Assembly: GCF_029910535.1 (NCBI RefSeq)
Contig: NZ_CP069362.1
Coordinates: 2,046,001 to 2,110,000, forward strand
DNA: 64,000 bases
Reading direction: 5' to 3'
Origin: Marinitoga aeolica
GTDB taxonomy: Bacteria > Thermotogota > Thermotogae > Petrotogales > Petrotogaceae
The number at the start of each line of letters is the position of its first letter. Within the stretch, counting starts at the first letter, position 1. A model generated the notes under the pieces. It searched no databases, was not told the DNA's origin, and saw only the letters and a list, made by a program, of their open reading frames with translations. Shown piece by piece: positions 33,952-63,110 of this stretch. A program made the translations under genes and the position numbers.

Positions 33952-34041
33952 TGCCGAGGTGGCGGAATTGGCAGACGCTGCGGACTTAAAATCCGTTGGG
34001 TGGAGACACTCGTGTGGGTTCAAGTCCCACCCTCGGCACCA
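33952..34041 (+). tRNA. tRNA-Leu (TAA), copy 1
   Basis: A 90-base class II tRNA. The acceptor TGCCGAG pairs with CTCGGCA, CCA is encoded, and GCGGA/TCCGT closes loop CTTAAAA, giving anticodon TAA. Confidence 0.93.
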
Positions 34042-34064
34042 TTTTTATTTTCTCTACTACGCGG

Positions 34065-34141
<77 letters not shown>

Positions 34142-34151
34142 TTTTTTTTAT

Positions 34152-34228
34152 GGCGGCGTAGCTCAGTTGGCTAGAGCATGCGGTTCATACCCGCAGTGTC
34201 AAGAGTTCGAGTCTCTTCGCCGCCACCA
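34152..34228 (+). tRNA. tRNA-Met (CAT), probably elongator, copy 1
   Basis: A 77-base tRNA with acceptor GGCGGCG/CGCCGCC, anticodon loop TTCATAC and CCA encoded. GTAGCTCAGTTGG matches elongator tRNA-Met of other bacteria. A lysidine-modified tRNA-Ile2 with the same CAT anticodon cannot be fully excluded by eye. Confidence 0.85.
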
Positions 34229-34429: not shown

Positions 34430-34519
34430 TGCCGAGGTGGCGGAATTGGCAGACGCTGCGGACTTAAAATCCGTTGGGTGGAGACACTCGTGTGGGTTCA
34501 AGTCCCACCCTCGGCACCA
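34430..34519 (+). tRNA. tRNA-Leu (TAA), copy 2
   Basis: Identical in sequence to 33952-34041; anticodon TAA. Confidence 0.93.
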
Positions 34520-34542
34520 TTTTTATTTTCTCTACTACGCGG

Positions 34543-34619
<77 letters not shown>

Positions 34620-34629
34620 TTTTTTTTAT

Positions 34630-34706
34630 GGCGGCGTAGCTCAGTTGGCTAGAGCATGCGGTTCATACCCGCAGTGTCAAGAGTTCGAGTCTCTTCGCCG
34701 CCACCA
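34630..34706 (+). tRNA. tRNA-Met (CAT), probably elongator, copy 2
   Basis: Identical to 34152-34228. Confidence 0.85.
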
Positions 34707-56987: not shown

Positions 56988-57059
56988 CCCCATGGAATAT
57001 TTGGAGAAAAAATAAGAAAATGATATCATTAAACTAAAGGAATGAAAGGGGTGTTTGGT

Positions 57060-57464
57060 ATGAAAAATAGAAATAAGTATTCTCCTGATTTCAAACTTCA
57101 AGTTGTTAAAGAATATCTTAATTCTGATAAGTCTTTATCCGATATTGCTAGTAAGAATGGTATTCCTTCCCCTCATACTTTACATAAATGGGTTAAAAAA
57201 TATGAAGATTCTGGTTATGATGACAATATCTTCAATTCTAAGAAAGGAAGGCCTAAGTCCATTATTTCTGATATTTCTAAGGTTCCTCCTTTTATTTATG
57301 AGTCTGCTGGTATTGTTAAACCTGATAATAATTCCAATGATACTAATTCTTTAAAGAAAAAAATTGAATATTATGAACGTCTTCTTATTGAAAAAGAGTT
57401 GCTTATTAAAATGCAAGAAGATGAGATTAACTTTTTGAAAAAAAAACACAACTGGAAAAAGTGA
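57060..57464 (+). CDS. IS3-family transposase orfA (inner element)
   Basis: A 134-residue HTH_Tnp_1-type protein (YSPDFKLQVVKEYL, SDIASKNGIPSPHTLHKW) with a C-terminal coiled coil. The ATG at 57060 follows GAAAGGGGTG. The gene ends in a GTGA overlap with orfB. Codon use is rich in TCT, CCT and CTT, unlike the A-rich neighbours, indicating recent arrival. Confidence 0.88.
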   Translation: MKNRNKYSPDFKLQVVKEYLNSDKSLSDIASKNGIPSPHTLHKWVKKYEDSGYDDNIFNSKKGRPKSIISDISKVPPFIYESAGIVKPDNNSNDTNSLKKKIEYYERLLIEKELLIKMQEDEINFLKKKHNWKK

Positions 57465-58456
57465 CTTTTATTGGTAATCTTTTGATTGTTTTTAAATATA
57501 GAGATTTTGGTGTTTCTACTTCTTTTTTACTCAATCGTTATAACATTAGTTCCAGTTCTTTTTATTATAATACCAGGTTGTTTTTTGTTGTTAAAAGAAC
57601 CAGAAAGTCTTATTTTAAAGGTCATTCCTATACTGCTGACGGTAAAAAAGTTTCTGATGATTATATTAAACAATTGCTTGTTGATTTGTTATCTATTGAT
57701 GACCCTTTGAATCCTGAGTTCTTTTACAAAACTCTTGGTTCTAAGAAGTTAGCTGCTATTTTTAGACACAAGTATAATATTATTATTAATCACAAAAAGA
57801 TTCATAGATTAAGAAAAGAATTAAATCTTATTAGAAATTATCGTCATCATCCAAAACATCCTAAAAGAAGACCTAAAAATCACGATATTACCAGACCTAA
57901 TCAATACTGGGAATCAGATATTAAATTTATCCCCACTAAATATGATGGTTATATCGCAATACTTACTATAATCGATAGTTTTGATAGGGCTGTTGTTGGT
58001 GTTTATATTGGTAATTCTATTAAAGCTAAAGATTTTATTTCAACTTTAAGAAAAGCTATTAATTTTAGAGGTGCTACTCCTGATAATCTCATTATTAGGA
58101 CAGATAATGGACCACAATTTAAAGCTAAAATTACTGCTGCTTTTATGGATGAATTAAATATTATTCATGAATTTGGTTACAAAAATAATCCTAATTCTCA
58201 AGCTTATATTGAATCTTTTCATTCTAGTGTTCAACGTGAATTTGTTGAATCTATTGAATTTGAACATATTGATGATGTTTATAATTACTATATTTCATAC
58301 ATTTATTTTTACAATAATTTAAGGCCTCACGGTTCTTTAAATTATTTTACTCCTGATTTTGTTTTTAATCTTTTTTCTAATCAAGATATTGATTCTAACT
58401 TAGACGAAATTAAATCTATTAAATTTAATGATTTTATTGTTTGTGTGAAAAAATGA
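57461..58456 (+). CDS. IS3-family transposase orfB (inner element)
   Basis: A 331-residue DDE transposase. Catalytic acids are in WESDIKFIPT, IIRTDNGPQF and the SQAYIESFHSSVQREF helix. The IS3 ending YIYFYNNLRPHGSLNYFTPDF is present. GTG start directly at the orfA stop. It appears intact. Confidence 0.9.
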   Translation: MTFIGNLLIVFKYRDFGVSTSFLLNRYNISSSSFYYNTRLFFVVKRTRKSYFKGHSYTADGKKVSDDYIKQLLVDLLSIDDPLNPEFFYKTLGSKKLAAIFRHKYNIIINHKKIHRLRKELNLIRNYRHHPKHPKRRPKNHDITRPNQYWESDIKFIPTKYDGYIAILTIIDSFDRAVVGVYIGNSIKAKDFISTLRKAINFRGATPDNLIIRTDNGPQFKAKITAAFMDELNIIHEFGYKNNPNSQAYIESFHSSVQREFVESIEFEHIDDVYNYYISYIYFYNNLRPHGSLNYFTPDFVFNLFSNQDIDSNLDEIKSIKFNDFIVCVKK

Positions 58457-58489
58457 GTTTTCCTTATTTATTCTCCAATATCCAGGGGG

Positions 58490-59830
58490 CAAGCCGCTTT
58501 TTATTTCATTTAAATCAATTTTATTTTTATGCATATATTCTAATAGCATTATGAAATCTCTTGGATTTGTGATAAAATACCTATTGTATATGTCTTTTAT
58601 TTCTTGTGGTGCCTGATGCATTGCTAAGCTATTATGTAATGCACCAGGCTTTCTTTTTAGCGTATTGATATAATGTTCTATATTTATTGACCATTTGTTT
58701 ATTCCATATATTCTTTTATGAATAGCAATAGGTTTTTCATCATATATTACTATTTTTTCTGGATACAATTTTACTTTTAACCATTTATCTGTATATTCAA
58801 CAGGTACAGAATATCTACAATTATTTACGGTTATAGTTGAATATTTATCTACATATACTTCCTTAATTATTGAATATTCATATTTTGGTGGTTTTTTAAA
58901 TAGATATTCTTTTTCTTTTTTGAATTCTTCAGCAGGAGTATTAGGATTTTTCATATTTTCATTTATATATCTTAGTCTTAATTCAAGAAATTCATTTGCT
59001 TTTTCTAAAGTATCAAATTCATATTTTATTGAAAACACCCTTTGTTTTATAACATTTACACTTTTCTCCACATGACCTTTTTCGTTTGGTTTTCTTACAT
59101 TACAAAATCTTATATCAAAATTATAATATGTTGATAACTTCATCAAATCATCTGTTATTTCTCTTTTATTCCTTCCAACAAACTTTTTTATTGCAACTTT
59201 CATATTGTCATATACTATGATTTTATTTACACCGCCAATATGATCAAAAAACTTCACATGTGAGTCTATGAAACTCTCCATATTTTGTTTTTGATACAAA
59301 TATGCATATCTGTAATTACTATATGCAAAAGTAAATACTGCAGCCTGTATATTTTTCATTACTCCATTTATTTCTAGTTTAATTTCACCCCAATCAAATT
59401 CAACTATATCTCCAGGTATATATCTCTGTTTTATATATGCTTCTTTTGACTTTTTAGAACTAATTTTTCTTACTAAATTATATATTGTTCCTGAACTAAT
59501 TTCATATCCTTCATTTCTTATTATTTCATACATTTGGCTTACTGGCATTATTTGTTTTCTCAAACCTTTCTTTCTCTTTGTTTCGTTTGCTTCTACTAAT
59601 TCTTGAATTCTCAACATTAGCTCTTCTGTGACTTTTCTAGGTTTTCTATTTGATGTATCGTATTTCGGTTTACCTGCTATTTTCTCTATTATCTCTTCAT
59701 TTATTCCATCTTGATTTTTATATTCTTCAAATGCTTCTTCATATTCTTTTACATATTTCCCTACTGTCTTTCTATTTATCCCTAATATCCTACTAATTTC
59801 TCGTTGTGACTTTCCTTCTCTAAAATACAT
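58490..59830 (-). pseudogene. istA: IS21 transposase istA, N-terminal part
   Basis: About 447 codons of IstA: REISRILGINRKTVGKYVKE helix-turn-helix, EFDWGEIKLEING and KIIVYDNMKVAI of the DDE core, and FCNVRKPNEKGHVEKSVNVI. It is cut after LNEIKSGL by the inner IS3 element; the tail is at 56821-56987. A possible earlier start is blocked by a TAA two codons after an upstream ATG. Confidence 0.85.
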
Positions 59831-59967
59831 ATATATTACTCTTCTTTTTTAGTCCATACTGATCATCCTTTCTCAACTCCTCTCATCTTGAGAAGAGTAT
59901 ATCATTTTTTTATCAGTGGACCATTTTTCAATTTCATTCATGGGGTACTTTTAGTATACAAAATACA

Positions 59968-59975
59968 GTTTGTTT
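59968..59975 (+). repeat. target-site duplication of IS21, right
   Basis: GTTTGTTT, identical to 55914-55921. Confidence 0.85.
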
Positions 59976-60390
59976 GATTTGAAATTTCTATTTAAGATGT
60001 TTTCTTTTGTATAATTATTTGATCTTTTTCTATTAATTTTTTTCTTTCTAATTCTTGATTTTATTTTTAAGTATTTCATTAATCTATGTATATATTTTTC
60101 TGAATAATTCATATGATTATATCTATTAATATACATTGTCATTCTTCTATACCCAAGTCTTCCATCATGAGCTACATTATATTCTATTATCAATTGACAT
60201 AATAATTCATCTATTTTTTCTTTTTCTGGTTTTTCTCTTTTTTGATTTTTATAATACGAACTTCTAGATATTCCTAGTATTTTGCATATTGTATTTACTG
60301 CATAACCTTTTTTTGAATATTCTTCTACTAATTTATATTCTAATATTTGTCGTACTTTTGATAATGTTTTTCTAATTTCTCTTTTTTTTT
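59976..60390 (-). pseudogene. IS3 transposase orfB, N-terminal part (outer element)
   Basis: The frame opens from the -1 slip site in orfA (A-run at 60382-60390) and reads the HTH_21 part of OrfB: KILGISRSSYYKNQKR, then GRLGYRRMTMYI and MKYLKIKSRIRKK, ending at NRNFKSN where the IS21 element begins. The C-terminal catalytic part is at 55423-55921. Confidence 0.8.
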
Positions 60391-61041
60391 AAGTATTTCT
60401 ATTTCCAATTCTCTAAATTTCCTTAATTCTCTTTCTTTTTTTAATTCATACTTTAATCGTTCTACTTCAGATAATGAATCTAAATCAATTTTTTTAGGTC
60501 CTCTTCTTTTATCCTTTAATCCTTCTTCTCCGTGCTTTAAATACAATTTAGTCCATTTATATACATTGGCATAATTTATACCGTATCTAATCGCTGCTTC
60601 TTTATAATTCATATTATTTTCTATTACCCATTTTACTATTTCTAATCTTTCTTCGAATAAAACTTTTCTTGATTTCATGGAATAATTTTCTCCTTTGAAA
60701 TTATAATTTTTTAGCTCTATTCCATTATAGTATTTTTTTATCCATTTATGTATAACAGATTCATTAATATTATACATACTTGATAATTCTCTCGATGTAT
60801 ATATACCTTCTATATATTCCTTTACTATCGATAATTTAAATTCTTTGCTATATACATTATTTCTTTTCCTTTCTTCAAATGCCTTTTCACCATGTATTTT
60901 GTATATGTAATACCAACTTAAAACTGTATTTTTATAACATCCTATTTCTTTACCTATACTTTCAAAACTTCCTTTTCCTAACATATAATCTTTACATGCT
61001 TGTATTTTTATTTCTTTGCTAAATTTCCTCCTTTTATCCAT
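60340..61041 (-). CDS. IS3-family transposase orfA (outer element)
   Basis: A 233-residue OrfA with repeated helix-turn-helix units (KEIKIQACKDYMLGKGSFES, EFKLSIVKEYIEGIYTSREL, NYKEAAIRYGINYANVYKW) and a C-terminal leucine-rich coiled coil. The A9-G slip site at 60390-60381 near the end allows -1 frameshifting to make an OrfAB fusion. AGGAGGG precedes the ATG. It is intact, but its orfB partner is split. Confidence 0.85.
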   Translation of the reverse strand: MDKRRKFSKEIKIQACKDYMLGKGSFESIGKEIGCYKNTVLSWYYIYKIHGEKAFEERKRNNVYSKEFKLSIVKEYIEGIYTSRELSSMYNINESVIHKWIKKYYNGIELKNYNFKGENYSMKSRKVLFEERLEIVKWVIENNMNYKEAAIRYGINYANVYKWTKLYLKHGEEGLKDKRRGPKKIDLDSLSEVERLKYELKKERELRKFRELEIEILKKKEKLEKHYQKYDKY

Positions 61042-62036: not shown

Positions 62037-62963
62037 TTAAAGCCATTTTTTCCCTTTAAACCATAAGTAAGTCATTATCATAATTACTATTGAAGATATA
62101 ATAATATTTACATATATCAAAGGATTTTGTTGAAACGGGAGTTTTACATTCATTCCATAAAAGCTTGTTAATATTGTAGGAACTTGAAGTAGGATGGTAA
62201 CAACTGTTAATATTTTCATGACAATATTCAAATTATTTGAAATAACAGATGCATAAGCATCCATCATACCAGATAAAATATTGCTATATATATTCGTCAC
62301 TTCGATTGCCTGTCTATTTTCAATCAAAGTATCTTCTAATAGCTCTTCATCATCTTCATAAAGTTCTAATACTTTACCTTTTAACAGCTTTTCCATCATA
62401 ATTTCGTTTGATCTTAAAGATGTAGTGAAGTACACTAAACTTTTCTCAAGATACATTAATGTTTCAAGCTCATTATTTTTCATGGATTTATGCAACTCTT
62501 CTTCTACTAAATCTATGGTTTTATTAATTTCTTTCAAATAATCAAGAAATAACTTGGCATTTTTAAAAAATATTTGGAAAATCATCTTGCTTTTTTTGTG
62601 TGGATTTAACAAACTTGTTTCTATCATTTTTTCTATAAAATCAATTTCCTGCTTCATGGATAATAATATATAATTTTTCCCAATAATTATACCTAATGAA
62701 ACGGTTTTATAAGGGATTTTTTCGTCTTCTTCATTTCTCATAGGAACCTTTAAAATTAATAAAATTGTATCTTCATCAATTTCTATACGTGCTCTTTCAT
62801 CTTCGTCCAGAGAATCAGTTATAAAATCAGGGTCGAAATTTAATAAACTTGAAAGCATATGAATCTCATCTGCCGATGGATTTACTACCTTTATAAGTGC
62901 ATCTTGAGAAAAGCTTTTTGCCTCCACTAGTTTGTGTTCTACTCTGCTATAAAATTTTACCAT
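62037..62963 (-). CDS. corA: magnesium/cobalt channel CorA
   Basis: A 308-residue CorA: a long cytosolic N-terminal domain with coiled helices, then two C-terminal membrane helices. The YGMN selectivity motif (FYGMNVKLPF) is near residue 272. It forms a pentameric Mg2+ channel. GGAGGAG precedes the ATG. A 15-codon leader ORF ends 21 bases upstream and probably controls it. Confidence 0.92.
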   Translation of the reverse strand: MVKFYSRVEHKLVEAKSFSQDALIKVVNPSADEIHMLSSLLNFDPDFITDSLDEDERARIEIDEDTILLILKVPMRNEEDEKIPYKTVSLGIIIGKNYILLSMKQEIDFIEKMIETSLLNPHKKSKMIFQIFFKNAKLFLDYLKEINKTIDLVEEELHKSMKNNELETLMYLEKSLVYFTTSLRSNEIMMEKLLKGKVLELYEDDEELLEDTLIENRQAIEVTNIYSNILSGMMDAYASVISNNLNIVMKILTVVTILLQVPTILTSFYGMNVKLPFQQNPLIYVNIIISSIVIMIMTYLWFKGKKWL

Positions 62964-62984
62964 ATTATCTCCTCCTTTTCTTTG

Positions 62985-63032
62985 TTATGGCGGTCTAGAC
63001 AACGGATCTTCGCTGCAACTAAAATAATCCAT
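62985..63032 (-). CDS. 15-codon leader peptide upstream of corA
   Basis: ATG at 63032, preceded by a strong GAGAGGTGA site, encodes MDYFSCSEDPLSRPP and stops at 62985-62987. It contains Glu-Asp-Pro and a terminal Pro-Pro, the kinds of residues that destabilise or stall ribosomes. The short leader (about 30 bases from the predicted transcript start) has no room for a large riboswitch. It is analogous in design to the MgtL leader of enterobacterial mgtA. Confidence 0.6.
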   Translation of the reverse strand: MDYFSCSEDPLSRPP

Positions 63033-63067
63033 AAAATTCACCTCTCTTTAAATTGGGTTTCTAAGTA

Positions 63068-63076
63068 ATTATATCA
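63068..63076 (-). promoter_or_regulatory. extended -10 promoter of corA unit
   Basis: On the minus strand TGA followed by TATAAT (63073-63068), about 36 bases before the leader ORF. Confidence 0.6.
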
Positions 63077-63110
63077 TATAATGTAAGCTTTTTTCATAAT
63101 CATAATTATT

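Follow-up and report, generated by a model that had tools for sequence, protein, structure and literature searches.

Organization of the corA locus

The corA gene of Marinitoga aeolica is located on the minus strand of the 64-kb window (the whole stretch of DNA analysed) and is preceded by a short leader ORF. From 5' to 3' on this strand, the predicted promoter, the Shine-Dalgarno (SD) sequence of the leader, the leader ORF, the corA SD and corA itself follow each other as listed below.

63092..63097, minus strand: weak -35-like ATGAAA of the predicted corA-leader promoter
63068..63073, minus strand: extended -10 TATAAT (TGaTATAAT) of this predicted promoter, 10/12 matches including the TG
63039..63046, minus strand: SD of the leader ORF, GAGAGGTG; such an SD is present in 7/7 genomes of the genus
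62985..63032, minus strand: leader ORF of 15 codons, MDYFSCSEDPLSRPP-stop, recognised from its conservation before corA and its mostly synonymous changes
62985..62993, minus strand: Pro-Pro-stop (CCG CCA TAA), the best conserved portion of the leader
62970..62976, minus strand: corA SD AGGAGGA, 8-9 nt 3' of the leader stop
62037..62963, minus strand: corA, a CorA family transporter of 308 aa with the YGMN motif (PF01544, E 8.6e-54)

The leader codons are ATG GAT TAT TTT AGT TGC AGC GAA GAT CCG TTG TCT AGA CCG CCA TAA, encoding MDYFSCSEDPLSRPP, and 21 bases separate the stop from the corA ATG (62963). The ORF of 15 codons with a good ribosome site, on which the original prediction relied, is present exactly as claimed, and the corA SD is within reach of a ribosome halted at the leader stop. 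By sequence comparison, the solved structures closest to the encoded protein are chains named magnesium transport protein CorA; its score falls under the TIGR00383 equivalog cut-off, and the assignment of its ion (Mg2+ or Co2+) is therefore presumptive. The gene immediately upstream in the window encodes a Zn/Mn-type ABC permease and is not retained beside corA in other families. Several IS transposase genes or remnants are found side by side in the adjoining region (57042-61041), among them IS3-like orfA/orfB and IS21-like istA, the family names being judged by eye from the translations. Elsewhere in the window, a block of three tRNA genes has undergone a recent tandem duplication, its two copies (33953-34225 and 34431-34703) having identical scores.

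The position of the extended -10 upstream of the ORF places the predicted start site about 28 nt before the leader, giving a predicted leader RNA of about 97 nt from the start site to corA. Transcription starting downstream of the ORF would have spoken against a leader function; the predicted promoter instead lies upstream. The same arrangement is recurrent among the 73 leaders examined for promoters: a perfect TATAAT precedes 29 of them, against 8% in shuffles, and TATAAT-like elements cluster 26-28, 31 and 37-47 nt 5' of the leader start. Computed with the usual 7 nt from the -10 to the start site, these spacings imply that the 5'UTRs of the leaders measure about 12-15 or 25-32 nt. Two similar length classes of 5'UTRs, 11-17 and 26-32 nt, have been described in Thermotoga maritima (PMC3636130). 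The leader ORF thus occupies the usual place of a first gene.

Conservation of the leader upstream of corA

The regions upstream of 42 close CorA orthologues were surveyed, originating from 41 genomes of the class Thermotogae and from one contig labelled Fusobacteriales (L033). With leader calls based on SD heuristics, and in genomes related to each other so that the counts are not independent, a leader was found before 34 of these 42 genes and was missing from the eight others; conservation in related genomes, the check proposed initially, is thereby supported. Twenty-six of the 34 leaders end with PP-stop. All seven genomes of the genus carry MDYFSCSEDPLSRPP or single-residue variants of it, while MESYGSYSDEPLPRPP, MSSESYTSSYSDEPLPRPP and similar peptides are found in family f10, MELYSSEGDLPP, MELYSSESEPPP and MELYSSESEPPL in family f2, and MDSSSSSKDVVSLPP, MESASNTEIPLRPP and MDCFNCDDDSKYKPP outside these groups. 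The start codon of the corA leader of one genome (G039) would be ACG and is uncertain. The pattern [DE]PLxRPP-stop occurs at 17 places in the 103 genomes, 16 of them directly 5' of corA, and the reversed pattern, used as a control, gave one match in the same genomes.

Changes within the leader are biased towards synonymous ones in the genus (5/7 distinct changes against 1.8 expected, P = 0.01, seven genomes) and in family f10 (10/18 against 4.8 expected, P = 0.007), and the bias is not significant in the Mesotoga-like group (name by inference). This bias is the single line of support suggesting that the leader is translated.

The leader is not a general trait of CorA: it was found before none of eight sampled distant CorA paralogues within the class, and most CorA genes from other phyla lack it. 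On the Fusobacteriales-labelled contig (L033:2924-3930), CorA is 76% identical to that of M. aeolica and is preceded by the PP-stop leader MDCFNCDDDSKYKPP; the D-Ala-D-Ala ligase-like gene beside it reaches just 42% identity with the M. aeolica genome. Leader and corA could possibly have been transferred together, or the contig could represent a binning error. Two Clostridia-type contigs (L074 and L044) share another sequence upstream of corA, GGACGTCGGACCGAGTTATAGGCG, for which Rfam gave no match reaching the gathering threshold.

A leader of the same style upstream of mgtE

MgtE is a Mg2+ transporter unrelated to CorA. A leader of the same style was found at 40 of the 57 mgtE loci of the class Thermotogae, PP-stop being here a search criterion, so that the PP ending in 40/40 holds by construction; the 17 other mgtE genes have no such leader. 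Among these leaders are MDSTGSFFEFSDLPP, LESTSSSFSLPP, VESTSLPP, VEYPSYSSNKPP, MEDPLSSYSNKPP and MGEDYPSSRPP. Two mgtE loci lacking a PP-stop leader (L174 and L214) display longer acidic leaders, starting with MSNEDSVPDSSCIYKG and MEEDLPDSYKIIMNKED, respectively, the former accompanied by a CTCCT-like anti-SD sequence.

As PP-stop was a criterion in this count, a fair control is provided by mgtE genes from other lineages, by the eight leaderless CorA paralogues and by a class-wide pattern search. None of 16 mgtE genes outside the class, from lineages reached through CorA, has a PP-stop leader, which rejects it as a general trait of mgtE. The class-wide search for an SD, a start codon, an acidic second codon and PP-stop gave 39 in-frame matches, of which 33 are at corA or mgtE; the remaining six are mutually dissimilar. 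Overall, the leaders comprise 8-19 codons, usually with Asp or Glu at codon 2 (63 of 74 leaders), and end with PP-stop; the stop is usually 11-33 nt 5' of the transporter start and mostly 6-15 nt from the transporter SD.

Within the 103 genomes, close CorA is carried by 41, MgtE (counted by PF01769) by 52 and both by only three, a near-exclusion with a Fisher P of 1e-13 when kinship is ignored. The distribution of the leader suggests that it tracks a function, the transport of Mg2+, and not a gene family. A link between the leader peptide and Mg2+ transport, as originally predicted, is well supported by its recurrence before CorA and the unrelated MgtE in a class where the M-box is missing.

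RNA structure and the distant leaders of family f2

The M-box (RF00380) is a riboswitch that in many bacteria controls genes for Mg2+ transporters, mgtE among them, in response to Mg2+. None was detected in the 103 Thermotogae genomes, the Bacillus subtilis and Lactococcus lactis controls being positive, and one is present at an outgroup mgtE locus (L275). The Rfam scan of the M. aeolica leader matched no family, and its predicted fold is not better than those of shuffled sequences (z 0.31), in agreement with the initial remark that no M-box-sized structure fits there. An M-box or other Rfam element was consequently rejected as the control of corA, none being at the locus, and so was an RNA switch, on account of the fold. 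Structure is also near random in the groups with a short spacer between leader and transporter (mean z -0.1 and -0.4). Searches of the M. aeolica leader revealed neither a terminator nor an alternative hairpin, nor a hairpin hiding the transporter SD in the manner of MgtQ. As this form of the RNA has no significant structure, a hairpin switch is unlikely.

A different architecture characterises the 14 genomes of family f2 (presumably Kosmotogaceae), in which the leader is 71-90 nt from corA and a strong hairpin, downstream of the MELYSS... leader, pairs with the corA SD and start codon (contigs L026, L028-L030, L017-L025 and L027; also L129, L133 and L135-L141). The anti-SD arm has a weaker alternative pairing with the start region of the leader itself. 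At this distance a ribosome at the leader stop would not block corA, and the sign or the mechanism must therefore differ; control would have to act via the hairpin, in the way suggested for the Salmonella mgtQ/mgtB pair. Standard pairs make up 90% of the pair cells of the Mesotoga-like set, against 43-65% in slid versions, with a covariation not above that of shuffles. Mesotoga-like leaders mostly end with CCA-CTT-TGA (PP-CTT-TGA), similar to the RF2 +1 frameshift site. The +1 frame is open through the anti-SD arm, where it reads DLSRPL(R/K)PPS. Its weak synonymous bias varies with the boundaries chosen (P 0.013, or P 0.12 when the region is extended), with base pairing as a confounder, and a +1 frameshift is a lead and not a finding.

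Comparison with known leader peptides

Leader ORFs controlling Mg2+ transporters are established in enterobacteria, with MgtL, CorL, MgtM/MgtP and MgtQ. The control of corA by a leader peptide, considered new for a thermophile in the original prediction, is not new in general, corL having been described in Salmonella and E. coli, where corA expression is inversely linked to corL translation (PMC11552253). Both corL and the present leader are short ORFs directly upstream of corA. CorL differs by a long structured leader, Rho-dependent termination, a UUG start in E. coli and a single Pro, whereas the M. aeolica leader is about 100 nt long, has no significant structure and ends with PP-stop.

MgtL and MgtQ exploit ribosome destabilisation for the control of Mg2+ transporters. 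MgtL, the mgtA leader starting with MEPDP..., has in common with the Thermotogae leaders an acidic codon 2, a Pro nearby and a Mg2+ transporter downstream, and Mg2+-dependent ribosome drop-off is also the model that we propose here. The early EPDP motif of MgtL acts via Rho and RNA refolding (PMC11282234); in Thermotogae the Pro-Pro is instead C-terminal, beside the transporter SD, the peptide sequence is unrelated, and the M. aeolica leader RNA shows no significant structure (z 0.31; group mean z -0.1) of the kind that switches and gates Rho termination for MgtL. MgtQ, encoded by an ORF of 8 aa before mgtB in Salmonella, is likewise very short, has Asp2 and another acidic residue and is involved in translational control, and its SD-sequestering hairpin has a counterpart in the f2 genomes. 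MgtQ acts through stem-loops that switch and can dispense with its only Pro codon (PMC8092293), whereas a hairpin of this kind is absent from M. aeolica and what stays constant in the leader is PP-stop. A Pro-rich C-terminus beside a downstream gene is also found in the RAPP arrest peptides and in CutF, a stalling leader responsive to copper (PMC9973294). Those proteins are exported and sense localisation or copper, unlike the Thermotogae ORFs of 8-19 codons, which have no signal sequence. The functional resemblance of the M. aeolica ORF to the enterobacterial leaders would be at most an analogy; its sequence is unrelated, a long structured leader is absent, and what is constant in it is PP-stop next to the ribosome site of the downstream gene.

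In the open-access literature, no report was found of an mgtE leader peptide in Thermotoga or of such leaders in Thermotogae. The PP-stop leaders of Thermotogae look like a new family, a variant of the enterobacterial kind.

Proposed mechanism and alternative explanations

Pro-Pro and a C-terminal Pro are slow contexts of translation. Termination after Pro-Pro would be slow as well, leaving a ribosome waiting on the leader stop. The footprint of a ribosome extends about 12 nt past the stop (PMC4833913), and with a stop-to-SD distance of mostly 6-15 nt the waiting ribosome would therefore crowd or cover the transporter SD and keep synthesis low when Mg2+ is ample. The nascent chain of 8-19 residues, with its acidic residues and Pro, would hold the 70S ribosome poorly together; when Mg2+ falls, the ribosome would dissociate before or at the stop, free the SD and allow more transporter to be made. 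The sensing of Mg2+ would then reside in the ribosome itself. Acidic N-terminal chains are known to destabilise ribosomes, an effect countered by Mg2+ and to which short chains are the most exposed (PMC9718836). The M. aeolica corA leader has D2, E8, D9 and P10, and corA leaders generally have several early acidic or Pro residues, while many mgtE leaders contain just a single acidic residue; in VESTSLPP-like leaders the classical destabilisation by an acidic run would therefore be weak. From the initial description of the leader as rich in acidic residues and Pro, the terminal PP stands as the constant feature and the acidic run does not.

That these ORFs constitute a conserved and functional leader of Mg2+ transporters is, in our view, very probable. 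We give an even chance to a translated regulatory leader operating by the full mechanism, of which we infer the pausing, the drop-off, the sign and the Mg2+ dependence. More tentatively, though by no means improbably, Thermotogae could possess a single transferable Mg2+ control, free of RNA structure and riboswitch, in which the ribosome terminating on a PP-stop leader of 8-19 codons is both sensor and roadblock, and which is kept while CorA and MgtE are exchanged.

The leader could merely aid translation, ribosomes that finish it reinitiating at the transporter start 20-30 nt further on with no signal sensed. The short spacing with the transporter SD in between would suit such a role, and leader genes have been proposed to raise expression in this way at a distance of about 10 bp (PMC4833913). 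The spacing of 20-30 nt exceeds this proposed optimum and reaches 71-90 nt in 14 genomes; moreover, reinitiation leaves unexplained the PP-stop ending, the conserved peptide sequence and the almost exclusive occurrence at Mg2+ transporters, which makes it unlikely. It is quite unlikely, too, that the leader monitors the capacity for translation, be it through charged tRNA-Pro, EF-P, release factor or polyamines, and adjusts Mg2+ uptake indirectly, in the manner of mgtP of Salmonella, which precedes a Mg2+ transporter operon and is known to respond to charged tRNA-Pro (PMC8092293). The slowness of Pro-Pro and C-terminal Pro would fit this sensing, but most leaders have two or three Pro codons only, at the very end, leaving little room for a tRNA attenuator, and the M. 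aeolica form has neither terminator nor alternative hairpin. A response to another metal carried by CorA (Co2+, Ni2+ or Zn2+) might be evoked from the CorA score under the TIGR00383 cut-off and from the adjacent Zn/Mn-type permease gene; it is made very unlikely by the same leader style before MgtE, the substrate common to MgtE and CorA being Mg2+, by the mutual replacement of the two transporters and by the loss of the ABC neighbour in other families. Finally, short ORFs accompanied by an SD-like sequence are common in AT-rich leaders, but a functionless chance ORF in the promoter region is already refuted by conservation over several families with synonymous bias and before two transporter families, the pattern being nearly confined to corA and mgtE, and retains next to no probability.

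Implications

The minimal forms of the leader, such as VESTSLPP-stop with its 8 codons, make the idea of a Mg2+-sensing terminating ribosome easily testable in purified translation. If true, it would show that Mg2+ sensing by the ribosome reaches beyond enterobacteria into a deep-branching and mostly thermophilic phylum, provide a case of a leader peptide following function rather than gene family, and answer how the M-box-free Thermotogae regulate their Mg2+ uptake.
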